The position numbers were made by a program, and so were the translations under genes. Under the pieces are notes generated by a model. It did not search any database, was not told where the DNA came from, and saw nothing but the letters and a program-made list of their open reading frames with translations. From Armatimonadota bacterium (GTDB taxonomy: Bacteria > Armatimonadota > Fimbriimonadia > Fimbriimonadales > Fimbriimonadaceae), in NCBI GenBank assembly GCA_017303935.1, contig JAFLBD010000003.1, positions 310,001 to 374,000 on the forward strand: a stretch of DNA of 64,000 nt, written 5' to 3'. Below, one piece after another: positions 7,473 through 40,920 of this stretch. Positions within the stretch are counted from its first letter, which is position 1. The number at the start of each line of letters is the position of its first letter.

Positions 7473-9035
<1,563 letters not shown>

Positions 9036-15721: not shown

Positions 15722-16245
15722 TGGAAACCATCTTCTTCTGGGATGCCAACGTCATAATCACGTTGAACGAAAACTTTCCGGCGACTGTTATCCCGAAGAT
15801 TCACGAACTTGCTGAAAGTTTGCTGAATCAAGGTCGCTTAAAAGTCTGCGAGCATGTCTTTCGTGAAATGAAAGGGGGTGCGGCGAAGGATTGGATTGAC
15901 AATCACAAGGAAAAGTGCTTTGAACCAGTCACAGCGGAGACGATGAATGTCATTCGGGAGGTCGCCGCTATCCCCAACTTCGTTGACGCAACAAAGACAG
16001 AGTCAGTAGATGCTGACCACTTTTTGGTTGCAACGGCTCTTGCGCACCAGAAAAGTATGGGTCAAAACTTGTTCTTACCGGTTGCGATGGTGGTCACGAT
16101 GGAGAAGCGCAAGAAGCCGGAGAAGCAAAGGCTGAAGGTTCCCGACGCCTGCGACAAGTTGGGCGTTAAATGCGTTGACCTCTACGGATGGCTCAGTGAG
16201 TGCGGCTACAAGCTGGACATCGTTCCTAAGGAGATTAACCCTTGA
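15721..16245 (+). CDS. DUF4411 PIN-like nuclease protein
   Basis: 174 aa. The N-terminus FFWDANVIITLNENFP has the PIN-type first aspartate. E-rich helices and VDADHFLVATALAHQ supply the later acidic residues of a PIN-like active site. DUF4411 proteins are predicted RNases. The ATG overlaps the upstream stop as TGATG; a GTG one codon earlier is also possible. Paired with the XRE-ImmA gene, it is the best candidate toxin of the operon. Actual RNase activity is inferred. Confidence 0.85.
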   Translation: METIFFWDANVIITLNENFPATVIPKIHELAESLLNQGRLKVCEHVFREMKGGAAKDWIDNHKEKCFEPVTAETMNVIREVAAIPNFVDATKTESVDADHFLVATALAHQKSMGQNLFLPVAMVVTMEKRKKPEKQRLKVPDACDKLGVKCVDLYGWLSECGYKLDIVPKEINP

Positions 16246-16265
16246 AGTTAGGGGGGAGCGAAGCA

Positions 16266-19200
16266 ATGCGGATTAACTATCCGGCCCTCAGCGATGAGAA
16301 CCTCAAGCGATATGGTACAGATGTCGGCGAATGGGCTCCCGAGTTGCTCGCCAACCTCTATCACGAGCGAACACATTTCGTTTTTGAGCTGCTCCAGAAC
16401 GCCGAAGACGCACTTCAGAGGAGAGCCGAAGCGGGTTCACGTTCGGTTCGATTCGAGCTTTGCAGAGGCGGGCTAAGGGTCTCTCACAAAGGCAAGCCAT
16501 TCGACGAAGCTGATGTCCGTGGAATATGCGGCATCAACAAGAGCACCAAAAAAGATGAGTTGACCGCCATAGGGCGATTCGGCATAGGTTTCAAGTCGGT
16601 TTATGCTGTCACTGACCGGCCCGAAATCCGTTCTGCAGGGCGGAACTTCGGAATCAAGGACTTTGTCCACCCCTTCGAGTTGCCGCCATGCGAAGAACAC
16701 GAAGGTGAGACAAGATTCTGGTTGCCCTTCCGTACAGATGACAGTTCAGTCTTCACGGAAATTGGCGAAGGGCTCCAGAAGCTGGATGCCAAAACCTTGC
16801 TCTTCCTCCGCCATGTCGAAGAGGTGGATTGGCGCATCGAAGGTGGCGCAAGCGGCACCTACTGTCGAGAGTCCGTCGAGTTGCAAGACGGATTGAGACG
16901 GGTTACTCTCATCGGCACGACGAGCTTAGGCGAAGAACTTTCTGAAGAGCAATGGTACGTGTTCTCTCGACCGGTCGAGTCAGATGGCACCGAGGTTGGA
17001 GCCGTCGAGATTGCCTACTCGGTGGATTTGACCGCTTCAACTAGCGATTTGAAATTGAGGACTGTTTCAGACTCAAGGTTGGCTGCTTTCTTCCCGACCA
17101 GCGTCCAAACTAATCTGGGGGTGGTCTTGCAAGCTCCGTTTCGAACCACTCCGGCTCGGGACAACGTGCCGCCAAAGGACCCCTGGAACCAGCGTCTTGT
17201 ACAAGAAACTGCATCCCTGCTAGTCGAATCGCTCGGTGTCCTTAGGGACCTGAACTTACTCTCGGTTGATGTCCTTTGCGGCATGCCGATTGATGAGGAC
17301 GACTTCCAAGAAGGCTCGATGTTCCGACCGCTCTATGATGCGCTAGCCAGCGCTCTCCAAGCTCAAGCACTGCTCCCAAAGAATGGTGGAGGTTGGATGC
17401 CGAGCTCACAAGCCGCCCTGGCTCGTGGACAAGAACTATGCGAACTCCTAGACTCAGGACAGTTGACATCCCTTTTTGAATCGAAGGAGGATTTGGACTG
17501 GCTTAGCGACAGCATTACTATGGACCGAACTCCAGTGCTCCGAAGCTACTTGATGCAGGAACACAAAATCCGGGAAATCCAGCCTCAGATGTTCGTATCA
17601 AGAGTCTCAAAGGAGTTCCTGGAGGACCAATCCGATGAGTGGATTTGCAAGCTCTACGAGTTCCTATCCGGGCAATCCCATCTTTGGAAAACACCTGGGA
17701 ATCTGAACAAGCCCTGGGTTCGCTTGGCTGACGGCAAACATGTCGTTGCCTTCACCGGTGAACAGCCCAACGCCTACCTTCCTTCAAAGTCCAGTTCAGG
17801 ATTCCAAACAGTGAGTCCCGCTGTCTGTTCCTCCGAAGATGCACTGAGCTTTCTCAGCGGCACCCTTAAGCTCAGCGAACCTGACCCCGTCGATGATGTC
17901 ATCAAGAACATCCTGCCCCTTTACGAAGAGGGAGCTGAACACGATAATCTCGGTCTCTATCGAGAGCATCTCGAAGCAATAATCGCAGCCTATAGCAATC
18001 AGAACACCCGAGAGCGGTTCACTTCGGCACTCAAATCAAAGCACTGGGTCGCATCCATTGACAACGATGGCAGCAAGAACTGGCTGACACCGTTTCAGTG
18101 CTATCTGCCCACAGACCGTCTTCGCCAGCTCTTCGAAGGTGTGCCTGACATTGACTTCGTGGATGACTCGATTCCGGGTTTACAGGGCGAAGCAATCCGA
18201 AACATTCTTCGTGCGTGTGGTTCAGAGCGATATTTGGACACCGTCCCCCCGGCTCAGAAGCTCTCGTCCGATGAATGCTACAAGCTTAGACAGAAGTATG
18301 GTGACACCGGATGTTCAGGAGGGGAAAGCCAGGATGACCGCACTCTGCACGGGCTGGATGGAATCCTCAAGCGCATTGCCGAGCTTCCACATGATGAAGC
18401 CGCAGAGCGCAGCCAATTGCTCTGGGATGCCCTAGCTGACGTGGTTCAGGACAAGCGCCAGGGCGTGGTGAAGGCAACCTACACCTGGACTTATTACAGC
18501 CAACGGAGTATCGAATTTGACGCTGCATTTATCCGCACGCTGAAGAGCACTCCGTGGATTCCTTCAAAGGACGGCACACTTTCAACTCCTGATGAAGTGG
18601 TGTTCGAGCATCTAGACCCGACTTGGACTCCGAATCCTGTCCTTCAAACTGCCCTGAACTTCCGACCATCGGAGCTTGAACAGTTTGCCAAGGCAGCTGG
18701 ATTCGACCTGGGCATCCTCAACATTCTCAAGAAAAGCGGCATCACAAGTGAATCCGACTTGAAGCAAAGGCTTGGTCTCACCAATGAGGATGAGTCATCT
18801 CATGATGATGATGATGAACATGAAGATGGCGAACATGACGATGAACAGCATCACGAAGAAAACACCCAAGGCAGCGATGATGATGGTGAAGTCGGTGATG
18901 GTGCGGGAAGCAATGGCAAAGAAGGAGAAGGAGCGGGAGTAGGTTCTGAAAGCGGCAGTGGGCGCAGCAGTTCGGGTGGCTCCGGTTCCGCAAGTGGAGG
19001 CAGTTCGTCCAACTCCTCCTCGAACAAGAATGCCAATGCCGGACGGCGGGAATTCTTCTCGTATCTAAAGACCCATCCGGTCGAGGTTGAGGACGATGAG
19101 TTCTCCGACTTGGAGACGCATGCAGAGCGGATGCGGGTCGAAGCGGTCGCCATCGACCACATCCTGAGAATTGAACCAGACCTACAGCGGACTCCCGCTG

Positions 19201-19511
19201 GGAACAAAGGGTTTGACCTTTATGGTACTGGCGAGAGTGGGCTCCCCAATCGCTGGATTGAGGTCAAGGCAATGGTCGGAACCCTTGCCAGCCACCCCGT
19301 TGGAATGTCGAAGGCGCAGTTTGAGAAAGCGATGACAGGAAAATCCAGCTACTGGCTTTACATCGTTGAAAACGCCACGTCAGAGGAACCAAGAATTTTG
19401 AAAATACAAGACCCCGCCGGAAATGCACGCACGTTCACATTTGATGAAGGATGGAGAGAGATTGCGACGGTCAGCCAGGTCAACGTTGAGACAGGTGAGG
19501 TAAAGATTTGA
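16266..19511 (+). CDS. Sacsin-like GHKL ATPase with C-terminal DUF3883 domain
   Basis: 1081 aa. The N-terminal ~230 residues form a sacsin/HSP90-type ATPase: ELLQNAEDA (E41, N45, D48) and GRFGIGFKSVYAVTD (103-117). A long middle region of unknown fold follows. A linker at about 842-925 is first His/Asp/Glu-rich, then Gly/Ser-rich. The C-terminal DUF3883 domain has GFDLYG...WIEVKA, which resembles a PD-(D/E)xK core. The ATG at 16266 has a strong GGGGGGAG site; TTG at 16242 would give a TTGA overlap instead. It is probably an ATP-driven effector or chaperone with a possible nuclease end. Confidence 0.88.
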   Translation: MRINYPALSDENLKRYGTDVGEWAPELLANLYHERTHFVFELLQNAEDALQRRAEAGSRSVRFELCRGGLRVSHKGKPFDEADVRGICGINKSTKKDELTAIGRFGIGFKSVYAVTDRPEIRSAGRNFGIKDFVHPFELPPCEEHEGETRFWLPFRTDDSSVFTEIGEGLQKLDAKTLLFLRHVEEVDWRIEGGASGTYCRESVELQDGLRRVTLIGTTSLGEELSEEQWYVFSRPVESDGTEVGAVEIAYSVDLTASTSDLKLRTVSDSRLAAFFPTSVQTNLGVVLQAPFRTTPARDNVPPKDPWNQRLVQETASLLVESLGVLRDLNLLSVDVLCGMPIDEDDFQEGSMFRPLYDALASALQAQALLPKNGGGWMPSSQAALARGQELCELLDSGQLTSLFESKEDLDWLSDSITMDRTPVLRSYLMQEHKIREIQPQMFVSRVSKEFLEDQSDEWICKLYEFLSGQSHLWKTPGNLNKPWVRLADGKHVVAFTGEQPNAYLPSKSSSGFQTVSPAVCSSEDALSFLSGTLKLSEPDPVDDVIKNILPLYEEGAEHDNLGLYREHLEAIIAAYSNQNTRERFTSALKSKHWVASIDNDGSKNWLTPFQCYLPTDRLRQLFEGVPDIDFVDDSIPGLQGEAIRNILRACGSERYLDTVPPAQKLSSDECYKLRQKYGDTGCSGGESQDDRTLHGLDGILKRIAELPHDEAAERSQLLWDALADVVQDKRQGVVKATYTWTYYSQRSIEFDAAFIRTLKSTPWIPSKDGTLSTPDEVVFEHLDPTWTPNPVLQTALNFRPSELEQFAKAAGFDLGILNILKKSGITSESDLKQRLGLTNEDESSHDDDDEHEDGEHDDEQHHEENTQGSDDDGEVGDGAGSNGKEGEGAGVGSESGSGRSSSGGSGSASGGSSSNSSSNKNANAGRREFFSYLKTHPVEVEDDEFSDLETHAERMRVEAVAIDHILRIEPDLQRTPAGNKGFDLYGTGESGLPNRWIEVKAMVGTLASHPVGMSKAQFEKAMTGKSSYWLYIVENATSEEPRILKIQDPAGNARTFTFDEGWREIATVSQVNVETGEVKI

Positions 19512-20925: not shown

Positions 20926-22398
20926 GTGCTTACCAACATTCAAATTGACGACGGAGCTCTCGGTCGCTTGCTTGAAGGGCTGCTCAAACTTGGGCGAGAA
21001 TGCGAGTGGGTCGAGTTCAAAGAGAACTGGGATGAACCAGAGGACATCGGCGAATACATCTCTGCGCTTTCGAACTCAGCGGCAATAGCGGGGATGCCCC
21101 AGGGCTACCTGATTTGGGGTGTTCAAGATGGCACTTTGGACATTGTTGGCACAACGTTCGACCCAGCGAGTAAGAAGATTGGCAACGAAGAGCTTGAGAA
21201 TTGGCTTTCCTACCAGGTTGCTCCCCGGCTGAATCTGCGGTTCATCAAGTTTGAAGTTGATGGAAAGGCGCTGGTGCTTCTCGAAGTTGACCGGGCATTC
21301 CGGCACCCTACTCGGTTTAGAAATGATGAGTTCATCCGAGTCGGTTCCTATAAGAAGAAGCTCAAAGAACACCCAGAGAAGGAGGCACTTCTTTGGAAGC
21401 AGTTCTCAGGGACGCCCTTTGAGGACTTGGCGGCGGCATTTGACCTGACCGCCGAGCAAGTGGTTGAACTGCTTGATATTGAGTCCTATTACCGATTGAA
21501 CGACCGACCGCTCCCTGGCGAACTCATGAAGAGCCTGGAGGCGCTGGTAGTCGATGAACTTATCAAGCCGGAGACCTCCGGTCGGTGGTCGGTCACAAAT
21601 CTTGGGGCTGTGCTTTATGCTCGCAATCTGGATTCATTCCGAAATCTTGGGCGCAAGGTTGTTCGAATCGTTCGGTACAAGGGCAATGACCGTATTGATT
21701 CCGTCAAAGAATGGTCCATCTCCAAGGGCTATGCAGTCGGATACGAAAGTGCCGTTGAACTCGTGATGGAGCAGATGCCTTCAAGGGAGATTATCGAAAG
21801 CGCCAGAAGGATTTCGCTGCCGATGGTGCCCAAAGTGGCAATCCGTGAAATTCTAGCGAATGCCTTGATTCACCAAGATTTTACCGTCGCAGGAGCAGGC
21901 ATCATGGTCGAAATCTTCGACACAAGAGTTGAGATTTCGAATCCGGGTGAACCGATGGTTGACACCAAGCGTTTGCTCGACCTTCCCCCTCGGTCTCGGA
22001 ACGAAGCGCTCGCTTCCCACATGAGACGAATCGGTTACTGCGAAGAGAGAGGCAGTGGCATCGACCGAGTTGTGAGCTTAGTCGAGGCATCTCAACTTCC
22101 TGCTCCCGAATTCTCTGTTCCCGACGGAAGCACGAAAGCGACCCTCTTTGGGACTCGACCGCTCAAAGATATGGATGCTGATGCCCGCATTCGGGCTTGC
22201 TATTGGCATGCTTGCTTGAAGCGAGTGAGACATGAGTACGTGACCAATGCGAGTCTGAGAGAGCGATTTGGCATTGACGAAAAGAACAGCGCCACCGTAT
22301 CCAGACTCATCAAAGAAGCAGTCGAGAGTGGGTTCATCAAGCCTCATGCTGAGAACTCATCGAATCGCCTCAAGCGGTATGTCCCGTTTTGGGTCTGA
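20926..22398 (+). CDS. AlbA_2/Schlafen-type protein with HATPase_c_4 domain
   Basis: 490 aa, GTG start two nt after hsdS, GGAGG upstream. The N-terminal AlbA_2 domain (about 20-140) has CEWVEFKENWDEPEDIGEYISALSN. A middle linker is followed by an HATPase_c_4-like region (AIREILANALIHQDF, ISNPGEP, RNEALASHMRRIGYCEERGSGIDRVV) and a C-terminal winged helix (SLRERFGIDEKNSATVSRLIKEAVESGFIKP). Such proteins are often transcription regulators or Schlafen-like effectors. Lying between S and R, it may control hsdR expression through the repeat array that follows. Role inferred. Confidence 0.88.
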   Translation: MLTNIQIDDGALGRLLEGLLKLGRECEWVEFKENWDEPEDIGEYISALSNSAAIAGMPQGYLIWGVQDGTLDIVGTTFDPASKKIGNEELENWLSYQVAPRLNLRFIKFEVDGKALVLLEVDRAFRHPTRFRNDEFIRVGSYKKKLKEHPEKEALLWKQFSGTPFEDLAAAFDLTAEQVVELLDIESYYRLNDRPLPGELMKSLEALVVDELIKPETSGRWSVTNLGAVLYARNLDSFRNLGRKVVRIVRYKGNDRIDSVKEWSISKGYAVGYESAVELVMEQMPSREIIESARRISLPMVPKVAIREILANALIHQDFTVAGAGIMVEIFDTRVEISNPGEPMVDTKRLLDLPPRSRNEALASHMRRIGYCEERGSGIDRVVSLVEASQLPAPEFSVPDGSTKATLFGTRPLKDMDADARIRACYWHACLKRVRHEYVTNASLRERFGIDEKNSATVSRLIKEAVESGFIKPHAENSSNRLKRYVPFWV

Positions 22399-22696
22399 GT
22401 TTATTTGATGGGTATTTGATGGAACGCCCCTCTGGGGACTGATTTAGGTTCAAAAGCGACCCCATTTCTATTTGATGGTCATTTGATGGCTTCTGCTGCG
22501 CCATCCTGGATGGCAGACGCCCGTCTGCGTAACCTGAGAGCTGCCAATGCCCACTCGTTTCGAGAGCATTGCATGGCTCCAAGCGACTCGCTTGTGATGC
22601 CAGAGTTTATTTGATGGGTATTTGATGGAACGCCCTTTTGGAGACTGATTTAGGTTCAAAATCAGTCCGAATCTTATTTGATGGTCATTTGATGGC
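22398..22696 (+). repeat. Eight ATTTGATGG repeats in two 92-bp direct repeats
   Basis: ATTTGATGG starts at 22403, 22414, 22470, 22481, 22609, 22620, 22676 and 22687. Copies come in pairs 11 bp apart, about one helical turn, and pairs within a block are 67 bp apart. The two 92-bp blocks (22398-22490, 22604-22696) also share an internal GATTTAGGTTCAAAA. The array fills the only long gap in the restriction island. The last copy contains TTGATG, which could be a -35 element with GATATT 18 nt downstream. Likely operator sites for cooperative binding. Confidence 0.9.
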
Positions 22697-26747: not shown

Positions 26748-28409
26748 ATGGAGAAACTCGACACCTGTTTGTTCGGCTGGAACAAGCGTCCCTTTTGCGA
26801 ATACCTTGACCCAGGCTGCCCTGTCCTTCGCTTTGGGAAATTGAGACAGTCGCTTCTGAGGGAAGTGTGCCCCAAGACTCTTGCTCTGGCTTACATCATC
26901 GGAAATCAGAGTTGGCGAAGAGATGTATGGGGGATGGAAAGTCATGATGGCTCGTTCTTCACGATTTCGACTGGAAGCGGAAAGAAAGGCGCACGACCGT
27001 TCGGTTGGCGAGAAGTGCTCCGAACACTAACGGGAAAGCAGTGCGCAGTCACCACAAGTGACGCTCCGTACCACAAGCCATCGAACTGGCTTTCCGTCCC
27101 GAAGTATGTTCGAGTTCTCCGTATTGACGTGGACGATGACCGGGCATGGGAGAACGATGACGAAGTCGCCATTTTGAGCGAAATCCGGCGTGAGCAACTA
27201 ATCTGCACCAAGCTCGGATTTCCCTATAGCGCATTCAAGACCGGGCGCCGAGGCCATCAAGGCATCATCCCACTGCCGGTAGCTATGCCGCTGAGCTTGG
27301 CTTCTCTCTTGATGGAGATGTACCTACACGTACATGAACGAAGTGGAATCAAGTCTCCGATGGTGGATAAGACCAATTTGACTGGGCAGATGCGAATGCC
27401 TGGAGGGCTCCACCGAAAGACGCAAGACCTTGCGCTTTTCATCGACATTGATAGCGGAACTCTCTACGACATCGACACCCAAGCTGAACTGATGGTGAAG
27501 GCGTTCTCATACCCATCCATGAAGGAATCTCTCCATTGGGATGCACTTGCATTCAAAGAGGCTGCGCAGGAACTTCTAGACTGGACATCCACTCAAGGAA
27601 TTTCCCGAGACCGTAGAGTTTTGCCCGCCGAAATGCGTCATGCGGTGACTGACCTAGAAACCAATGCAATCGTTCGTCGCTTCCGAGAGTCCTGTGAGTT
27701 CTTTGGGCTCAAAGTTATCACTGCATCCGACCGGGTTTCAAATTCTCCGAAGCTAGAAAAAAGACATCAGACTTCAAGCGACTCTTGTAGCAGCCAATGG
27801 GCGCAGCAAATCTATAACGAAGGGTTTAAGCCGGGTGGATTTTGGGATTGGATAAACATGGGTGGCAAAAAGGCAATTCGAGCTGCCCATGTTCTATTTG
27901 GTGAGGATGGGGCAAGAAAAGCACTCGAAGACAAAGCGAGAAGTATTCCAGCCAAGTCGGAAGATGACCTATTCGACCGGCTGAACACGATTCGCTCTTG
28001 CATGTCTTCGTATCACTATCAAGCTGAGAACACTCCAGTGGATGCAGAAGAAATCCGCTCTCACTGGAATTCAGCCAAGAGAGAGGTGAAGTCAACTCTA
28101 AAAGACAAGCCCAAACCCCGATGGAAACTAGAACCTGCAATTGCGGTGCTTACAGTGTTGCTTGCAGATGCTGAGATTCATCAAAGACGATTCACAAAAC
28201 TAGGGCTCCGTGAAATTGAACGCAGGGTGTCATCAACTTATCCTGAAATCAAGTGCTGCACCAATACAGTAAAGGCATCGCTACATCGACTCGTTGAGTC
28301 TGGACTTGTCCGAAAGCGAAGAGTTTCCACAGCAACGAGCGTCCCGGACGTGTATCAAATTCTGAAGGCTGCTCCGCAAGCCAACGAGGAGTGGATTGAA
28401 CTCTATTAG
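26748..28409 (+). CDS. Replication/primase-like protein of the archaeo-eukaryotic primase type
   Basis: 553 aa. Motifs in order fit AEP primases: LRIDVDDD (D127, D129), TGRRGHQGIIP (H170) and MVDKTNLTGQMRMPGGLHRKT. The C-terminal ~100 residues look like a winged helix (LREIERRVSSTYPEIKCCTNTVKASLHRLVESGLVRKRRV). Such proteins prime or initiate replication of plasmids and integrative elements. There is no Shine-Dalgarno, and a 14-bp inverted repeat abuts the start. The family assignment rests on motif spacing only. Confidence 0.6.
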   Translation: MEKLDTCLFGWNKRPFCEYLDPGCPVLRFGKLRQSLLREVCPKTLALAYIIGNQSWRRDVWGMESHDGSFFTISTGSGKKGARPFGWREVLRTLTGKQCAVTTSDAPYHKPSNWLSVPKYVRVLRIDVDDDRAWENDDEVAILSEIRREQLICTKLGFPYSAFKTGRRGHQGIIPLPVAMPLSLASLLMEMYLHVHERSGIKSPMVDKTNLTGQMRMPGGLHRKTQDLALFIDIDSGTLYDIDTQAELMVKAFSYPSMKESLHWDALAFKEAAQELLDWTSTQGISRDRRVLPAEMRHAVTDLETNAIVRRFRESCEFFGLKVITASDRVSNSPKLEKRHQTSSDSCSSQWAQQIYNEGFKPGGFWDWINMGGKKAIRAAHVLFGEDGARKALEDKARSIPAKSEDDLFDRLNTIRSCMSSYHYQAENTPVDAEEIRSHWNSAKREVKSTLKDKPKPRWKLEPAIAVLTVLLADAEIHQRRFTKLGLREIERRVSSTYPEIKCCTNTVKASLHRLVESGLVRKRRVSTATSVPDVYQILKAAPQANEEWIELY

Positions 28410-28544: not shown

Positions 28545-29519
28545 TTAGAGCCCGACCATTCCTGATACATTCTGTTCGAACATCGTTGCTTCCCTAAGAT
28601 AGTCGTTGATAGAGTTCGAGCGATGGCGACTGTGCTTCGCAATGACAGCCTGTGCGGCACCAACACTAAAAGCGTCCGTGATAAGACCTGCTCGGCAGCT
28701 ATGCCCACCAACAAGAGCATCGTCAAGACCAACTAATCGAGCAAATTGCTTCAGCACTTGGCAGACTACTTGGTCAGTCAGCCTTGAATCCTGGATGCGA
28801 CCTCCCTTGGCGACAGGTCGGAAAACCGCACCGCTGGATATCTCAGAGACCTGGAGCCAGTTCCGCATAGCGTTGACAGGACAAGTGTCTGTGCGGCTCC
28901 CACGTTGAATCGCAATCTTCACTCCCGCCGATGTATGGTCGGTCTTGCTTGTCCGCAAAGTCAAAACGAGCCCCTCCTCTACGAACGAGATGTCATCGAC
29001 ATCAAGCCCAACGACTTCGCTTCGGCGGAGGGCTCCAGCATATCCAACCAAAAGAATTGCTCTATCTCTGATGCCCTTCGTATCTGAGCGCATCAGGTCA
29101 ACTCCCTCCCGGATGTGCCGAACCCTCACCGGAATCACCTGGCGCTTTGCTGTACCGTTCGCCCGCTTCACACCAAGAAGCGTCGAGCGAACCAGCTCGG
29201 ATTTGGTTGGCGATTCGTGGCCAGCAGCTCGATGCGCTGTCGAGATGGATGATAGTCTTCGCTGAATTGTCGATGGTCGATGGGTTTCAGCAAGATTAGC
29301 GATATACGCTGCTACGGTGCTTGGGTGGCAAGGAAGAGCCACCAATCCGTGTGTCGAGCAGAAGGCGGTGAAGTGCTTCCAATCGCATGAATACGCTCGA
29401 AGTGTTGATTCAGCTCGTGAACGACGAGCAAAGTCCACTGCGCTGGACTGAAGGCGCTCGATTTCGGTCGATTGAGCTGGTGCCAACTCGGTCGAAGATT
29501 GAAACTGATACTCTTTCAT
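28545..29519 (-). CDS. Tyrosine recombinase (phage-integrase family)
   Basis: 324 aa. A core-binding SAM-like domain (about 30-115) is followed by a catalytic domain with R165 (GALRRSE), K192 (TSKTD), H273-S-C-R276, H299 and nucleophile Y307 (INDYLREA). It lies inside the element and far from either end, so the end-adjacent serine recombinase is the better candidate for integration. This enzyme may resolve dimers or come from a second, older element. The 135-nt gap downstream (28410-28544) holds no visible gene. Confidence 0.93.
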   Translation of the reverse strand: MKEYQFQSSTELAPAQSTEIERLQSSAVDFARRSRAESTLRAYSCDWKHFTAFCSTHGLVALPCHPSTVAAYIANLAETHRPSTIQRRLSSISTAHRAAGHESPTKSELVRSTLLGVKRANGTAKRQVIPVRVRHIREGVDLMRSDTKGIRDRAILLVGYAGALRRSEVVGLDVDDISFVEEGLVLTLRTSKTDHTSAGVKIAIQRGSRTDTCPVNAMRNWLQVSEISSGAVFRPVAKGGRIQDSRLTDQVVCQVLKQFARLVGLDDALVGGHSCRAGLITDAFSVGAAQAVIAKHSRHRSNSINDYLREATMFEQNVSGMVGL

Positions 29520-29634: not shown

Positions 29635-29925
29635 TTACTCGTCGATTGGTTTCGAATCTTCGACCCTGCGATGCTGCAAACTCACGATGTAGTCGCCAAA
29701 TAGCTCAATAGGGTCGATGCCAATGGCTCTGGCAAGAGCGACGAACTCGACCACATCTAAAACTCGGGCTCCACTTTCCACCTTGTGATAGACCGTCGGG
29801 TGAAAGCCTAGCCTTCGACCGACCTCTCTTTGCGACAAGCCCGCCAATTCTCTTGCGTCACGAATCGTCGTGAGCAAGATGTCGGTCTCAAGTGAAATTG
29901 AGGATTGTCGAGTGCGCTTAGCCAA
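29635..29925 (-). CDS. XRE-family transcriptional regulator
   Basis: 96 aa, TTG start. A single helix-turn-helix spans about residues 15-75 (LLTTIRDARELAGLSQREVGRRLGFHPTVYHKVESGARVLDVVEFVALARAIGIDPIELF). It is divergent from the zinc-ribbon operon and 115 nt upstream of the tyrosine recombinase on the same strand, so it probably represses one or both. Confidence 0.85.
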   Translation of the reverse strand: MAKRTRQSSISLETDILLTTIRDARELAGLSQREVGRRLGFHPTVYHKVESGARVLDVVEFVALARAIGIDPIELFGDYIVSLQHRRVEDSKPIDE

Positions 29926-29930
29926 CCTGG

Positions 29931-29956
29931 CTACAGAGTTGCACCCAAACCTGTAG
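29931..29956. promoter_or_regulatory. Possible operator between the XRE gene and the zinc-ribbon operon
   Basis: CTACAG (29931-29936) and CTGTAG (29951-29956) form a 6-bp inverted repeat with 14 nt between them, five nt upstream of the XRE start. The spacing suits an XRE dimer, but a 6-bp match is weak evidence. Confidence 0.3.
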
Positions 29957-30018
29957 GTATCATAACTACATTCCTGGGCATCTGTGGTAATAACCTCGCT
30001 CGTGGATTCGAGTTCGAC

Positions 30019-30486
30019 ATGGCATATTGCACATCTTGCGGAGCGTCCCTGAAGGGTGACGAGAGGTTTTGCGGAACATGTGGAGCGGCGGCCCCAACTA
30101 GCTCAGCACCCAAAGTTCCGTCACACACCGACGCTCGTCCTCCGCTCGACGCTAGACTTGGTGAGGCATCGAGTGGCAGCGCCACGACAGAATCAGTGAC
30201 CCTACAGATTCATTGGGGCGGAACAAGGTTCTTGGCTGGTCAATTCACCGTGCTCGTTGATGGAACTAGAGTTAAGACCAGTGACTTTGATAAGTCATTC
30301 ATCTATGAGCTGAGTCTGAGACCAGGCCAGCACGCCATTCAAACTGAGATTTTAATTCTGGGAACAGGCGTCAGGCGACACCGACTCTACACTCTAAGCC
30401 TGAGTGCCGGAAAGCACCAGGCTCAACTGAGTTACAGTCGATTGTGGGGGAATTTTGAAAAGCAACTTCAGCTTCGCAGGCTGTGA
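30019..30486 (+). CDS. Zinc-ribbon protein A with beta-rich domain
   Basis: 155 aa from the ATG at 30019 (a longer frame from 29905 runs through the XRE start and is unlikely). The N-terminal zinc ribbon is CTSCG...CGTCG at residues 4-22. A Ser/Pro-rich linker leads to a beta-rich domain (VTLQIHWGGTRFLAGQFTVLVDGTRVKTSDFDKSFIYELSLRPGQHAIQTEI). First of three genes that share the N-terminal ribbon. No membrane segment. Function unknown. Confidence 0.75.
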   Translation: MAYCTSCGASLKGDERFCGTCGAAAPTSSAPKVPSHTDARPPLDARLGEASSGSATTESVTLQIHWGGTRFLAGQFTVLVDGTRVKTSDFDKSFIYELSLRPGQHAIQTEILILGTGVRRHRLYTLSLSAGKHQAQLSYSRLWGNFEKQLQLRRL

Positions 30487-30509
30487 TATGGCCCCCAAGA
30501 AGGTTAAGA

Positions 30510-31118
30510 ATGCAGAACTGTAAATCATGTCAGGCTCCCCTAAATGGGGATGAGAAGTTCTGTGGAAGTTGTGGAGCAGAGTGTGTGATTGCTACGCCAA
30601 AAGCGGAAACGGCGAGACCTTCGAGCAATATCCCTCCCCCCACTACTCCAGTTGCTCCGGCCCCTGCAGGGCATGAGTTTATCAGCTCTTCAAAGGCTCA
30701 AACACTGCCGTCTAAGCGCACATGGACAGGGCGCATTCCACTTTGGATTATCGTGGGATTAGTAATGGCCCTCTCGCCATTCGTCAAACGAGGGTTCGAC
30801 CAAGCGCTTAATCGTCCGCCGGACTTGACTCCTGAAGCATGTATCCAGAGCATTTTCAAAGTTGACGGAATAAACACGTACCTCACCCAAAGGCGGCGAG
30901 TCCTTGACCGCATTGCTTCGATGAATTGCGCTGAGCTGAGTTCGATGATTCTCTACGCACGGCAGAACCAGGAGAAGTTCAAAAACCTCACGCCGCAGGA
31001 AATTCAGAACGTAAACGAAGTGGGAGAGGCGTTCAAACTTCGGGTGAGCGTTGCTGGATGTCAGGTGACCGCTGATGGTTCTTATGTCGAACCCACAATC
31101 GGAAGTGCAGGTAGGTGA
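30510..31118 (+). CDS. Zinc-ribbon protein B, single membrane segment
   Basis: 202 aa from the ATG with AAGAAGG seven nt upstream. Residues 4-22 are a zinc ribbon (CKSCQAPLNGDEKFCGSCG), followed by a proline-rich linker, one membrane helix (about 74-92, IPLWIIVGLVMALSPF) and a ~100-residue soluble domain ending in two widely spaced cysteines. Its stop overlaps the start of protein C (GTGA). Topology and function are inferred only from the sequence. Confidence 0.72.
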   Translation: MQNCKSCQAPLNGDEKFCGSCGAECVIATPKAETARPSSNIPPPTTPVAPAPAGHEFISSSKAQTLPSKRTWTGRIPLWIIVGLVMALSPFVKRGFDQALNRPPDLTPEACIQSIFKVDGINTYLTQRRRVLDRIASMNCAELSSMILYARQNQEKFKNLTPQEIQNVNEVGEAFKLRVSVAGCQVTADGSYVEPTIGSAGR

Positions 31119-32272
31119 AGTTCTGTACGAAATGCGGCTCGAAGCTTAACTCAACCAAGTTCTGTATAAACTGCGGAGCGGAAGTTGAGGAAGGGCAGGT
31201 TCCGCCAAAGTCCTCTTCATCTCCAAAACAGTGGTCTGCCACTGTAGGCCCCAATGGGCTGACTCAATGCCCCCAATGTGGCAAGACCCTTCGGGTCCAC
31301 TGGACCGGAAAGCCGGGAAACTTTGTTTGCCCAATCGGGGCGGGAGGATGCGGAATCAACTTTTCTGTGACGGTGGACCCCAAGTGGAGCAAGTATACGA
31401 CTGGCGGTGGGCAAAACTCAGCGCAGACTCAATCCAGTCAACAAAGTCAGCCTTCGCCGCCTCTCACCACCTTCATTTTGGCTTGCCCTAAGTGTCAACG
31501 AGCTATTGGACTTCCACAGTCCACCTACGGGATTTCCCAGTGTATCTGTGGATTCAATTTTCGGTTCAGAACGCAGGAAAAGGTGGGAGTTATTGTTCCC
31601 CAAGTTCAGTGGTTGTATGTGCCGCAACAAGACCCTTGCCCAGAATACCAAGTGTCCCTCGAAAGCACAACGATTCACTCAGACGGCTCAGTCAGCCTCG
31701 ACTGCCCTGCTTGTGGGACGAACACTACGGTCGTATCACCAGGCTATTCCAAGGCAGCTACCAGTGCAGCTAGATGCTCACAGTGCCAGCAGCGCTTCCT
31801 ATTCGCCCTTGCACAATCGCCCAATGGCGTAATGAATAGGGCTCGGCCCTTCGAAAACGGAATTCCGATGCGGCCATTCAAGCCCCTACCTTTGATATCC
31901 GAGCGAATCATTTATTGTTCAGAATGCTTGAATCAGCTTGGTCCTGGTCGAATTCCGCCAGATTCAACATTTAATAACCCCGGCGCTCCGGCAGCATACG
32001 ACCGGAGAGTACTCCCGACGGTGGGTGAAGTCTGGACGAAGTGTCGCCAGTGCGTCGATGCGGAGACTGAAGCAAAGCGAATAAAGGAAATCAAGGCGAT
32101 TCCTGGTCTTGCCTGGGGTGCGGTAAAACTCGGGGTTGGATGCATCTGGTGGGGCATATGCATCATCGGTTTATTAATATTCTTGCTGGTTACACCCCTG
32201 ATGCCGTTAGCGCTGATAGCCTTGGTGATTCTTGGAATCCTTGCACTCGTGAAGTTCTTGTTTAAGGACTAA
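31115..32272 (+). CDS. Zinc-ribbon protein C with several cysteine pairs and C-terminal membrane hairpin
   Basis: 385 aa, GTG start in the stop of gene B. The N-terminal ribbon (FCTKCG...FCINCG) is followed by at least four further CxxC pairs (CPQCG, CPKC, CPACG, CSQC, CSECL, CRQC) and a hydrophobic hairpin at about 335-383 (GCIWWGICIIGLLIFLLV, LALIALVILGILALVKFLF). With A and B it could form a membrane-associated zinc-protein complex. No known family recognised. Confidence 0.75.
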   Translation: MKFCTKCGSKLNSTKFCINCGAEVEEGQVPPKSSSSPKQWSATVGPNGLTQCPQCGKTLRVHWTGKPGNFVCPIGAGGCGINFSVTVDPKWSKYTTGGGQNSAQTQSSQQSQPSPPLTTFILACPKCQRAIGLPQSTYGISQCICGFNFRFRTQEKVGVIVPQVQWLYVPQQDPCPEYQVSLESTTIHSDGSVSLDCPACGTNTTVVSPGYSKAATSAARCSQCQQRFLFALAQSPNGVMNRARPFENGIPMRPFKPLPLISERIIYCSECLNQLGPGRIPPDSTFNNPGAPAAYDRRVLPTVGEVWTKCRQCVDAETEAKRIKEIKAIPGLAWGAVKLGVGCIWWGICIIGLLIFLLVTPLMPLALIALVILGILALVKFLFKD

Positions 32273-32360: not shown

Positions 32361-33059
32361 TCACTGGAAGGCGGTCGCCACCTCCCGTTGCAGCATGCGC
32401 TTAGCAACTTGCAAGTGGGAACGGAGCTGGCTATCCGAAACCTGAAGAATCTCCGCCGCTTCAGAGTACGTGTACTCTTCCAAGTAAATGAGAGATAGTG
32501 CATAGGCGACGTGGATGGGAAGCTTCTCCATGAGCAGTTTCACGTAGAGGTCTGAGTCCAAGTCATCCATTGCTGAGCACCCGAACCGCTCTTCGTAGTC
32601 TACGAAACTCGGGCTATCCAGCTCCAGGAACTGAAACACGAGCGCCCCAAGAGCATCTCGTTCGACCGAGGAGAGTGCCTCTCCAGACCAGTTCTTGGTT
32701 AACGCCTGGTTTCGTGCCTTTCTCTTCTGCGAAGGGCAGCGCACTCCGCCGACGCAGTCAATTGCCGAACGCAAGTGACACTCCGCCGAATAGAGAAGAT
32801 AGCGGTCGATTTCAGATTCGGAGCGAGTAGAGTCAACTCGCTCTGCGGCGATGAGTACGCCTAAGATGAGTTCCTGTCGTGCATCTTCAAAGTCAAGCGA
32901 CGTTCGTTTTGTCGAGTACTTGCGGGCAAGAGAGTTGATGTTGCGCCCAAGTCGTTCGAGGAGTGCGCTTCCGAACCGGAATTCGGCTCTGTTCGAAGGG
33001 GTGTGATTATCGGAGTCGAGATGGGCAGTTGCGCCCGATGTGCATGGTGTGTTTTCCAT
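32361..33059 (-). CDS. RNA polymerase sigma-70-like factor of the element
   Basis: 232 aa. A sigma-2-like region (about 38-80, NSLARKYSTKRTSLDFEDARQELILGVLIAAERVD) and a sigma-4-like helix-turn-helix (about 180-228, LPIHVAYALSLIYLEEYTYSEAAEILQVSDSQLRSHLQVAKRML) flank a helical middle part. It may direct transcription of element genes under particular conditions. It is convergent with the zinc-ribbon operon and divergent from the RHH gene. Regions 2 and 4 are diverged from housekeeping factors. Confidence 0.75.
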   Translation of the reverse strand: MENTPCTSGATAHLDSDNHTPSNRAEFRFGSALLERLGRNINSLARKYSTKRTSLDFEDARQELILGVLIAAERVDSTRSESEIDRYLLYSAECHLRSAIDCVGGVRCPSQKRKARNQALTKNWSGEALSSVERDALGALVFQFLELDSPSFVDYEERFGCSAMDDLDSDLYVKLLMEKLPIHVAYALSLIYLEEYTYSEAAEILQVSDSQLRSHLQVAKRMLQREVATAFQ

Positions 33060-34764: not shown

Positions 34765-35115
34765 ATGTCGATCCTTGGGAATCTAGACACCATCCTCGTT
34801 TTCGTCAACGATATGGATCAGTCGGTTGCTTTCTACACTCAGGTTTTGGGGTTTGAGTGCGGCTATTCGAGCGAGCACTGGTCGGTCATCAATGCGCCAG
34901 GGGCCAGGATCGGGCTCCATTCCGGCCGTGAATCTCATCACGAGAGCTCGGTCGCGCTCTGCTTCCAGACCGCGAGCACCGAACAGCTCAAAGCTCATCT
35001 GGCAGAATCCCAGACAAAATTCTCCCCCGAGGAGCACGAAACTCCCCGAGGGCGGTTGATCGAGTTTTACGATCCAAGCGGAAATCGCTTGCAGGCTATC
35101 GAGCTTACTTCTTGA
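34765..35115 (+). CDS. VOC-family (glyoxalase-like) protein
   Basis: 116 aa with the single-subunit vicinal-oxygen-chelate fold: ILVFVNDMDQSVAFYTQVLGFE at the start and RLIEFYDPSGNRLQAIEL at the end (candidate metal-binding Glu in IEFYDP). Substrate unknown. It is a chromosomal gene to the right of the element. Its last five codons and stop lie in a 30-bp repeat that is also the end of mscL. Confidence 0.88.
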   Translation: MSILGNLDTILVFVNDMDQSVAFYTQVLGFECGYSSEHWSVINAPGARIGLHSGRESHHESSVALCFQTASTEQLKAHLAESQTKFSPEEHETPRGRLIEFYDPSGNRLQAIELTS

Positions 35116-35130
35116 GCAAATCTCGGATTT
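35101..35130 (+). repeat. 30-bp direct repeat, left copy (antisense mscL tail)
   Basis: Identical over 30 bp to 37612-37641, with different flanks. It contains the VOC stop and, on the other strand, the last eight codons and stop of mscL. The pair bounds a 2.5-kb insertion. Confidence 0.9.
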
Positions 35131-37600: not shown

Positions 37601-37611
37601 CTATGACTTTT

Positions 37612-37641
37612 GAGCTTACTTCTTGAGCAAATCTCGGATTT
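37612..37641 (+). repeat. 30-bp direct repeat, right copy (3' end of mscL)
   Basis: Identical to 35101-35130. Here it is the genuine mscL end, encoding EIRDLLKK and the stop on the minus strand. Confidence 0.9.
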
Positions 37642-38500: not shown

Positions 38501-39841
38501 GTGCAACCCGTCCTGGTTGACTACCGCACGAAAACCGCCCTATGGCTGATTGTGCACGAAACGTTAAGGCAACATTGGCAACCCCACGCAGGACAGATTG
38601 AATTCTTGCAGCGGACGGACCGCATCAAGGTTCTCGCTTGCGGCCGGCGATGGGGCAAGACCGATGCGTGCGCCGTCTCGATTCTGCAATCGTTTGCCGA
38701 ATCTACTCCGACGAAGCACCTTATTTTGGCACCAACGCTCGAGCAAACCAAGTTCCTGTTTGAGCGGATTGTCGAGTTGATCCCACTCGCCTTCCCTGCT
38801 TCATCCTTGAAGATAAAGCGCTCGCCGCACCCGCAGCTTGAAGTTCAAGTGACCCCGGACGGTGAGGTGCATCGGTTGAAAGCCCGATCAGGTCACCTTG
38901 GCTACACCCTTCGCGGCGACGAGGCCACCAACATTGTCGTGGACGAGGCCGCCTATGTGCCGGAAAGTCTGATCACGGAAGTCGCGATGCCGATGCTTGC
39001 GACCACCCGCGGGCAACTTACGCTCATCAGCACACCGCGAGGCAAAAACCATTTCTACAAGTTCTTTCGGTTTGGGCAGACCGGAGAACACGGAGTCTGG
39101 AGCAAGGCGGCCCCAACGGTCGAATCCCCATTCGTCAGCGCGGACTTTCTCTCAACTCAGAAAGAGCTTCTTTCTGAGCGAGTGTTCCGTGTCGAATACC
39201 TCGCGGAGTTCATGGATACGTCCGGAAAAGTCTTCCCGACTGATGCTGTTGAACGATGTGTCAAGCCTCGCCTGAACGCCGATCCTGCACCGCCGTACTC
39301 CATCGGAATTGACTGGGCGCGGTTCAGCGATTACACCGCGATTGCGGTTCTTTCTGGGTCTCGCGACGATGCGAAACTCGTTCAGCTTGTAAGGTTCAAC
39401 GGCCTCGCCTGGAGCGATCAAGTCCAACGTGTGTCGGCGATTCTCGAGCAGTATCCAGGGGCAAAGGTGCTCTGCGATGCCACTGGAGTTGGCGATCCTG
39501 TGCTGGAGATGCTGCGCGCACGAAATCCGCATCTGCGCATCGAAGGGCTGGTCTTCAGCCAACCGAAGAAGCAGGAATTGATCGACAACCTCGCCTGGAT
39601 GTTCGAACGTGGCGCGATTCAGCTCACGCCATACCCAGACCTCTTGCGAGAACTGGAGTATTTCGAAGCCACCACGTCCCCTTCCGGGAACGTTCGGTTG
39701 GCCGCCGCAAGTGGCTATCACGACGATCTTGTAGTGGCTCTCGCACTAGCCGCCAAGCAATGCCAATGCGCCTACAGCGGCGTCATCGCCACTTCCCACC
39801 CTCGCCAATTTTCGCATCAAATCGAATCAGAAACGCTATGA
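38501..39841 (+). CDS. Phage-type terminase large subunit
   Basis: 446 aa, GTG start. ATPase domain with Walker A GRRWGKT (48-54), Walker B NIVVDEAAY (D148, E149) and the coupling motif LISTPRG. The RNase H-like nuclease domain has IGIDWARFSDYTAIAVL, LCDATGVGDPVLEML and YHDDLVVALALA, covering the expected three acidic positions. In phages it packages DNA into capsids. Here it is followed only by a portal gene, with ribosomal and division genes on either side, so it is either a prophage remnant or a domesticated pair. Confidence 0.9.
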   Translation: MQPVLVDYRTKTALWLIVHETLRQHWQPHAGQIEFLQRTDRIKVLACGRRWGKTDACAVSILQSFAESTPTKHLILAPTLEQTKFLFERIVELIPLAFPASSLKIKRSPHPQLEVQVTPDGEVHRLKARSGHLGYTLRGDEATNIVVDEAAYVPESLITEVAMPMLATTRGQLTLISTPRGKNHFYKFFRFGQTGEHGVWSKAAPTVESPFVSADFLSTQKELLSERVFRVEYLAEFMDTSGKVFPTDAVERCVKPRLNADPAPPYSIGIDWARFSDYTAIAVLSGSRDDAKLVQLVRFNGLAWSDQVQRVSAILEQYPGAKVLCDATGVGDPVLEMLRARNPHLRIEGLVFSQPKKQELIDNLAWMFERGAIQLTPYPDLLRELEYFEATTSPSGNVRLAAASGYHDDLVVALALAAKQCQCAYSGVIATSHPRQFSHQIESETL

Positions 39842-40920
39842 AACTCACCTTACCTTTCTCCAAAAAAGTAACCAAACCAACGAAATCTTCCACCCCTCAA
39901 TACTCTCTCACCGAGCGACGGAGCCTCGAATATCCGGGCGTCACCCATGGACTTCCAGGATCGGCATACGAGGAAATGGAACTTGATCCCATGATTCAGA
40001 CGGCGATTACGATCAAGCAGCAAGCGGTCTTAGCCGCCGATTACCAGATCGTTCCGCAATCCGAAACTCCCACCGCGATCCGCAATGCCAAGTTCATCGA
40101 ATCGGTGTTTGAGCAGATGGAAGGAAGCCCTCGCACGATTCTGCAATCGGCAATGGATGCCTTCGTTCGGGGCTGGTCGGTGCAAGAGTTGATCTACACC
40201 GAGCGAGACGAGCAAATCGTTCTGACGCGGTGCCAGCCCAAAGATGTGAGCCAATTCGGCCTCATCCTCGACGAATTCGGTCAGCTCTTGGGGCTTTCGT
40301 TCCGATCTCCAGACTTTGAAGAATCTTCGGTTCCGCTGGGCAAGTTTGCGGTGTTTATCAATCGACCGCACACTTCAAGGCCAAAAGGACGAAGCGATCT
40401 GGATTCGGCATACCCGCACTTCAAGACCAAGCAATCTCTCGCGAAAGCGTGGAAGGCTCATTTGGAGCGCTACGCCAGCCCGACGCTTCTTGGGTCGTAT
40501 CAAAGAGGGCTACCTGAAGATGAACAGCGCGGATTCTTGGCCTCGCTGAAGAACCTTCACGATAACACCGCGATCGTGTATCCAGATGAAATCAAGATCG
40601 AAGCACTCCACGGCCGGGAGTCAGACAACAACGCCTTCTTGGAAGCGATCGAATTTCACAATCGAGAGATCGCACGCTCGATTCTAGGGCAGACTCTGAC
40701 CACCGACGAAGGACGACGAGTGGGTTCGCTCGCGCTTGGCAAGGTCCATTTGCAAGTTTTGATGCTTCAAATCACCTCGCTTCGGAAACTTCTGGCAGAT
40801 TCTGTGATGACGGAGCAGATCATCCGGCCACTGATTGAGTTGAATTTCGGCCCAGGAGAGGTACCGCGATTTGAATTCAATTCGCCAGAACTAGAAGCGT
40901 TCACGACCGGAAAACTCTAA
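39838..40920 (+). CDS. DUF935 (Mu gp29-like) phage portal protein
   Basis: 360 aa; ATG overlaps the terminase stop (ATGA). Family features include YEEMELDPMIQTAITIKQQAVLAADYQI near the start, FVRGWSVQELIYTERD in the middle and GQTLTTDEGRRVGSLALGKVHLQVL towards the end. Portals form the ring through which the terminase pumps DNA. It is shorter than Mu gp29 (about 500 aa), mainly at the C-terminus. No capsid, head or tail genes follow. The frame is intact. Confidence 0.85.
   Translation: MKLTLPFSKKVTKPTKSSTPQYSLTERRSLEYPGVTHGLPGSAYEEMELDPMIQTAITIKQQAVLAADYQIVPQSETPTAIRNAKFIESVFEQMEGSPRTILQSAMDAFVRGWSVQELIYTERDEQIVLTRCQPKDVSQFGLILDEFGQLLGLSFRSPDFEESSVPLGKFAVFINRPHTSRPKGRSDLDSAYPHFKTKQSLAKAWKAHLERYASPTLLGSYQRGLPEDEQRGFLASLKNLHDNTAIVYPDEIKIEALHGRESDNNAFLEAIEFHNREIARSILGQTLTTDEGRRVGSLALGKVHLQVLMLQITSLRKLLADSVMTEQIIRPLIELNFGPGEVPRFEFNSPELEAFTTGKL

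Follow-up and report, generated by a model that had tools for sequence, protein, structure and literature searches.

A predicted XRE-controlled module with exchangeable zinc-ribbon genes on a putative mobile island of an Armatimonadota bacterium

Results

Three ribbon proteins at one locus

We analysed a window of 64,000 nucleotides (the whole stretch presented here), which contains three consecutive ORFs, named P1, P2 and P3. The ORFs and their N-terminal CxxC-CxxC ribbons are as the initial annotation had described them (Table 1): the first CxxC of each protein begins at residue 4 and the second at residue 18 (P1 and P2) or 17 (P3), and in all three proteins the two pairs have the spacing of the Pfam ribbons PF13240 and PF12773. 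Pfam ribbon scores fall just under the curated cut-offs in P1 to P3 (the P1 ribbon gives 3.4e-5 against Zn_Ribbon_1, below its cut-off) and above them in the proteins found at the corresponding place in two related genomes, G183 and G184. The ATG taken as the start of P1 is internal to a longer listed ORF; the same ATG is present in a further relative, G198, where, as in the window genome, the GTG start of P3 overlaps the stop of P2 by GTGA. The earlier reading of the three genes as a single operon is supported. Comparison of these two genomes gave dN/dS values of 0.08 for the divergent XRE gene, 0.48 for P1, 0.21 for P2 and 0.19 for P3, so that all four look like constrained genes, P1 being the loosest.

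Table 1. Coordinates of the features discussed in the text, as positions in the window.
Feature	Position	Strand	Description	Basis or remarks
tRNA-Met	7473-7549			
Left att-like copy CCCCGCACCCAAA	7539..7551	.	tRNA-Met 3' end	
Large serine recombinase	7506..9035	-	Left island end	Resolvase 4.8e-18, Recombinase 6.8e-10
Island	~7552-34707		27 kb	
Sacsin + NOV_C protein	16242-19511		1089 aa, adjoining a DUF4411 gene	
94-nt direct repeats	22397-22490 / 22603-22696		88%	
553-aa protein	26748-28409			
Tyrosine recombinase	28545..29519	-	Beside XRE; likewise in G198, G213	Phage_integrase 3.4e-11
XRE-family regulator	29635..29925	-	96 aa, TTG start	HTH_3 9.4e-11, HTH_31 3e-11, above cut-off
Candidate operator TGTAGGTATCATAACTACA	29952..29970	.	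19-bp inverted repeat TGTAG-N9-CTACA between the divergent genes	
P1	30019..30486	+	N-terminal zinc ribbon, low-confidence linker (27-55), 8-stranded beta domain, without membrane helix	ORF, AF2
P2	30510..31118	+	N-terminal zinc ribbon, linker, one membrane helix, helical C-terminal domain	ORF, AF2
P3	31115..32272	+	N-terminal ribbon, more ribbons, C-terminal membrane hairpin	ORF, CxxC scan, hydropathy
Sigma-70-like protein	32361..33059	-	Convergent with the operon; likewise in G198, G213	Sigma70_r4_2 4.6e-9
Right att-like copy CCCCGCACCCAAA	34695..34707	.		Repeat search of window
35-nt direct repeat	35096-35130 / 37607-37641		94%, of the mscL 3' end	
Terminase large subunit and Mu-type portal genes	38501-40920		Between mscL and ftsZ	

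Hydropathy and AF2 modelling bear out the earlier view that two of the three proteins are membrane-linked and that the P1 body is a beta domain lacking a membrane segment. P2 has a single hydrophobic segment (about residues 74-92), modelled as a membrane helix at 78-100, and a C-terminal domain predicted with a pLDDT of about 90 (overall mean 69.9). Cysteines 140 and 184 of its body, invariant in an alignment of four P2 relatives, would suit an extracytoplasmic disulfide. P3 carries six more CxxC motifs, at residues 52, 124, 197, 221, 268 and 310, and its C-terminus (335-385) consists of 51 hydrophobic residues, consistent with a hairpin. Hydropathy gave no hydrophobic segment in P1, and its AF2 model, built from 2 sequences, has a beta-domain block at a pLDDT of about 67-86 (whole-chain mean 68.0).

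Neither P1 nor P2 was assigned a known fold: neither model had a Foldseek PDB match at E<=0.001, and their VIA-align rows were middling. The first 15 rows for P1 were of the alpha-crystallin type, with Z of only 4.9-5.8 and rmsd of 2.6-3.8 over 65-74 residues; as a Z of up to 5.8 is too low, we do not give P1 that name. Profile searches with P1 to P3 yielded no PADLOC family at E<=0.1, in agreement with the initial annotation, which had recognised no known defence family, and no confident match in NCBIfam or PHROGs; for the bodies of the three proteins no Pfam, NCBIfam or PADLOC model was confident.

A conserved regulator and its candidate operator

The divergent XRE regulator that had been proposed for the operon was confirmed, with both HTH models matched above cut-off and a conserved inverted repeat in the intergenic gap. 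In a profile search of 291 genomes of the phylum, its close clade scored 153-173 bits and comprised nine genomes, every one from a single family; the best score outside the clade was 67.6. Sites fitting TGNAGGTAWSAKNNCTWCA align in the gap beside the XRE gene at all nine loci, about 26-30 nt from its start. At eight of them a script placed the operator start 27-29 nt away from the XRE anchor (codon 2 in G184 and G195); at the ninth, in G070, it was taken from the alignment and a pattern search, at about 30 nt. All five arm pairs are kept in six of the nine sites and four of the five in the other three. Five of the perfect sites read TGTAG/CTACA, and in G184 both arms are changed together, to TGAAG/CTTCA. 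Perfect 5-bp arms with a 9-base spacer occurred in 18 of 20,000 random 19-mers of the window.

Across the 291 genomes the operator pattern gave 12 matches, nine of them at clade XREs, with exactly one in each of the nine XRE genomes; a slightly narrower pattern also matched once in the window genome. A reversed control pattern gave 10 matches, so the count alone is not significant and it is the position of the sites that is telling. The extra matches, in G131, G160 and G035, were treated as chance, with no XRE evident in nearby ORF listings. No sigma-70-like promoter was found in the operator region. We propose that an XRE dimer probably binds the 19-bp repeat in the common gap and would thereby keep its own gene as well as the operon opposite repressed, a switch that we consider well supported as a prediction.

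Distribution of the trio and of the wider module

A check for co-occurrence of the three genes in other genomes, on which the initial annotation had staked its case, came out mixed. The complete trio was found in one other genome only, G198 (another genus of the same family), in the same order and with identities of 91% for XRE, 87% for P3, 74% for P2 and 61% for P1. We therefore rejected the trio as a widely conserved unit, having read it complete only in these two genomes (P1 on its own was searched in a 151-genome sample of the phylum that lacked G198). XRE, operator and variable ribbon genes occur together at all nine close XRE loci, one of them weak. Relatives found with the P3 profile are limited to 4 of the 291 genomes, as are full-length relatives found with the P2 profile, and all lie beside a clade XRE. 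The P2 profile matched 40 of the 291 genomes, 36 of them weakly and mostly over the N-terminal ribbon and linker, and six matches to P3 in a contig search cover its N-terminus only. Judged by these profile matches, N-terminal ribbons of the P2 kind are common in the phylum; with 40 genomes matched and 4 full-length relatives, we do not take them as a sign of relationship.

Ribbon-bearing, mostly membrane, genes face the clade XRE at nine of nine loci, clearly in eight and weakly in G070. The window genome (G000) and G198 carry the full trio. A P2-like protein accompanied by a ribbon/membrane protein is found in both G213 and G195; G189 and G099 have a P3 core that lacks the N-terminal ribbons, and G184 a ribbon protein with TM2-like helices. 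G183 has several ribbon ORFs, of which one includes a bacterial PH domain (23.6 bits against a cut-off of 23), and G070 a small lipoprotein-like ORF with a short ribbon/membrane ORF unrecognised by Pfam. Between G189/G099 and the window, XRE is 72-73% identical and P3 30-32%, which indicates a retained regulator and an effector that diverges or is exchanged. The trio represents one version of a broader module made of XRE, operator and an exchangeable ribbon operon.

Outside the clade the linkage appears weaker. Among seven loci with distant XREs (35-47% identity), ribbon-type genes stand opposite XRE in G175 and G227 and a DnaJ-like cysteine-rich protein in G186; no ribbon gene was seen opposite XRE in G205, at both loci of G177 or in G176. 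The genes opposite the XREs of G175 and G227 (XREs at L043 1817-2083 and L046 1791-2087) are short ribbon/membrane ones, so that the clade may not mark the limit of the pairing.

Searches of viral contigs returned no relative of P1, P2 or P3, nor of the P2 and P3 profiles; plasmids held none of the three proteins, and phages none of P3, the one trio protein searched against them. As these searches turned up no relatives, a phage or plasmid origin of the trio was rejected. Over short stretches the XRE profile matched four viral loci, three of which (L099, L101 and L102) have no ribbon gene directly opposite XRE in their ORF listings. XRE also matched 19 plasmid records, at less than 60% identity, and one phage record; no ribbon gene is annotated in the phage record or in one of the 19 plasmid records. 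A literature search at listing level gave no description of a module combining XRE, operator and ribbon genes.

The island and its restriction genes

By its sequence features, the module appears to ride a mobile island integrated at tRNA-Met. The island is bounded by the 13-bp repeat CCCCGCACCCAAA, present in two copies in the window, and the 3' end of the serine recombinase overlaps the tRNA gene. Further island genes encode an ArdC-like protein, an IrrE-like protease, type I methylase and restriction subunits and an adenine methylase; no phage structural genes were recognised in its 27 kb. G198 carries the same island (window 7466-34714, aligned pieces at 82-92% DNA identity). In the siblings G201, G202 and G203, of the same genus as the window genome, tRNA-Met lies close to mscL on one contig, without the island.

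Restriction-modification (R-M) genes lie near seven of the nine clade XRE copies. HsdM (PF02384) is found within 20 kb of XRE in six of the nine genomes, against a naive expectation of 0.29 genomes (probability of at least six, 4e-8, ignoring the kinship of the islands). Type I HsdM lies 16-18 kb from XRE in the window (about 17 kb), G198, G213 and G070. Four islands carry homologous HsdR/restriction genes and G189 and G099 are alike, which reduces the association to about three independent events. Islands collect R-M genes anyway.

Several other features were observed in and around the island. The sacsin and NOV_C protein lies in the type I R-M cluster and may form an R-M-associated accessory pair with the adjoining DUF4411 gene product. 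Copies similar to the 94-nt repeats are found near HsdR in related islands. The 553-aa protein is kept in G198 with a dN/dS of 0.19; it looks primase-like by eye only, and none of Pfam, NCBIfam, PHROGs or PADLOC placed it confidently in a family. Beyond the right end of the island, the 35-nt repeats enclose a segment of about 2.5 kb, which includes a gene weakly resembling SocA (1.8e-3, far under cut-off) and looks like a second small insertion. Around the terminase and portal genes, no other phage structural genes were seen by eye in the ORF list. The islands of the window genome and G198 adjoin tRNA-Met, and a tRNA-Ser lies near the modules of G213 and G070 (L048 4989-5076; L049 8231-8318).

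Discussion

We propose that the locus is an operon repressed by XRE, whose products would form a membrane-associated ribbon complex and act as an accessory defence or exclusion module. We put the probability of this full mechanism at about 0.45; our confidence in its regulatory half is considerably higher. Once repression is lifted, the operon products would reach the inner membrane with their zinc ribbons in the cytosol. From the predicted topology, P2 would be anchored by its one helix, with the small helical domain outside, and P3 by its hairpin, P1 serving as a soluble partner. Because the ribbon is repeated in all three proteins, a membrane-associated complex is likely; the proteins may bind one another through the ribbon, as the initial annotation had suggested. 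Most likely the complex would provide an accessory defence that fends off or excludes phages or competing elements and complements the island's own restriction system. We infer this defence role, and prefer it, because the regulator is kept whereas the effectors are exchanged, and because of the sporadic occurrence of the module and its island and genomic association.

The module has an N-terminal C4 ribbon, linker and membrane helix in common with the zinc-ribbon membrane proteins of Pfam (zinc_ribbon/DZR), and some relatives carry TM2-like or bPH_3 domains. Those are generic architectures without a common body, and the bodies of P1 to P3 have no confident match. The diversity of these membrane-type partners, TM2-like and bacterial-PH domains included, would also suit a function outside defence, in an envelope or stress response or in transfer or maintenance of the island, that merely happens to travel on islands; the sigma-like gene and the recombinase that adjoin the module in three loci point the same way. 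Set against this are the sporadic distribution (9 of 291 genomes), the different island types and the exchange of effectors under one operator, all unusual for housekeeping, and we consider such a function rather unlikely.

The R-M genes raise another explanation, namely that XRE is a C-protein-like controller of its R-M neighbours and the ribbon operon a secondary target or passenger. Like the C-proteins C.BclI and C.Csp231I, the module combines a small HTH regulator, a palindromic operator directly upstream of the regulator's own gene and a mobile R-M context. XRE is of similar size to R-M control proteins and matches them weakly (PADLOC Control_protein 3.8e-6; C.BclI 2b5a 8.8e-4), its better matches being other XRE structures (3f6w 1.6e-12). 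In G184 the genes of a type II methylase and of a restriction enzyme lie directly behind XRE and run in the same direction. However, the best-placed target of XRE is the divergent ribbon/membrane operon, not an endonuclease gene. In the window no operator directly precedes an endonuclease or methylase gene; its single operator faces the ribbon operon, and HsdM is as distant there as in the three other islands. R-M genes stand directly behind XRE only in G184, and in G183 and G195 (two of the nine loci) none was seen in the stretches read by eye. C-protein operators, according to PMC3115060, come as two sites, of the GACT/AGTC type or CTAAG-N5-CTTAG, in contrast to the single TGTAG-N9-CTACA site of the module. 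Overall we regard control of R-M genes as improbable.

No better placed is an addiction module of toxin-antitoxin type, in which membrane ribbon proteins toxic without XRE control would stabilise the island: strict linkage of a small HTH regulator to membrane proteins on an island, with recombinase and sigma-like neighbours, would fit, but XRE is divergent from the operon, unlike XRE antitoxins, which are usually co-directional, and in place of one small toxin the effector side has between one and four distinct proteins.

Prophages and integrative elements, with their accessory genes under repressor control, offer a further parallel to the proposed defence or exclusion module: an HTH repressor faces accessory genes, a recombinase adjoins them and there is a single operator. 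Unlike them, the module sits on a 27-kb island without recognised phage structural genes, and searches found no viral relatives of the trio and no phage relative of P3. That related bacteria share the regulator and its operator, with changing proteins behind them, suggests an undescribed, switchable accessory system. A bolder claim, somewhat unlikely as it stands, is that the module represents a class of inducible membrane immunity or exclusion not described before, in which a conserved XRE-operator switch would govern interchangeable ribbon effectors; these would assemble through their ribbons beneath the inner membrane and, as a second layer beside restriction, keep phages or plasmids from entering.

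What began as an anecdotal operon becomes a definable module with a searchable signature, the XRE clade, its operator and the divergent ribbon genes. Conflict systems are expected to show such a constant switch with swapped effectors, and through its link to R-M islands the module becomes a concrete candidate for defence or exclusion at the membrane, in a lineage that has been little studied.
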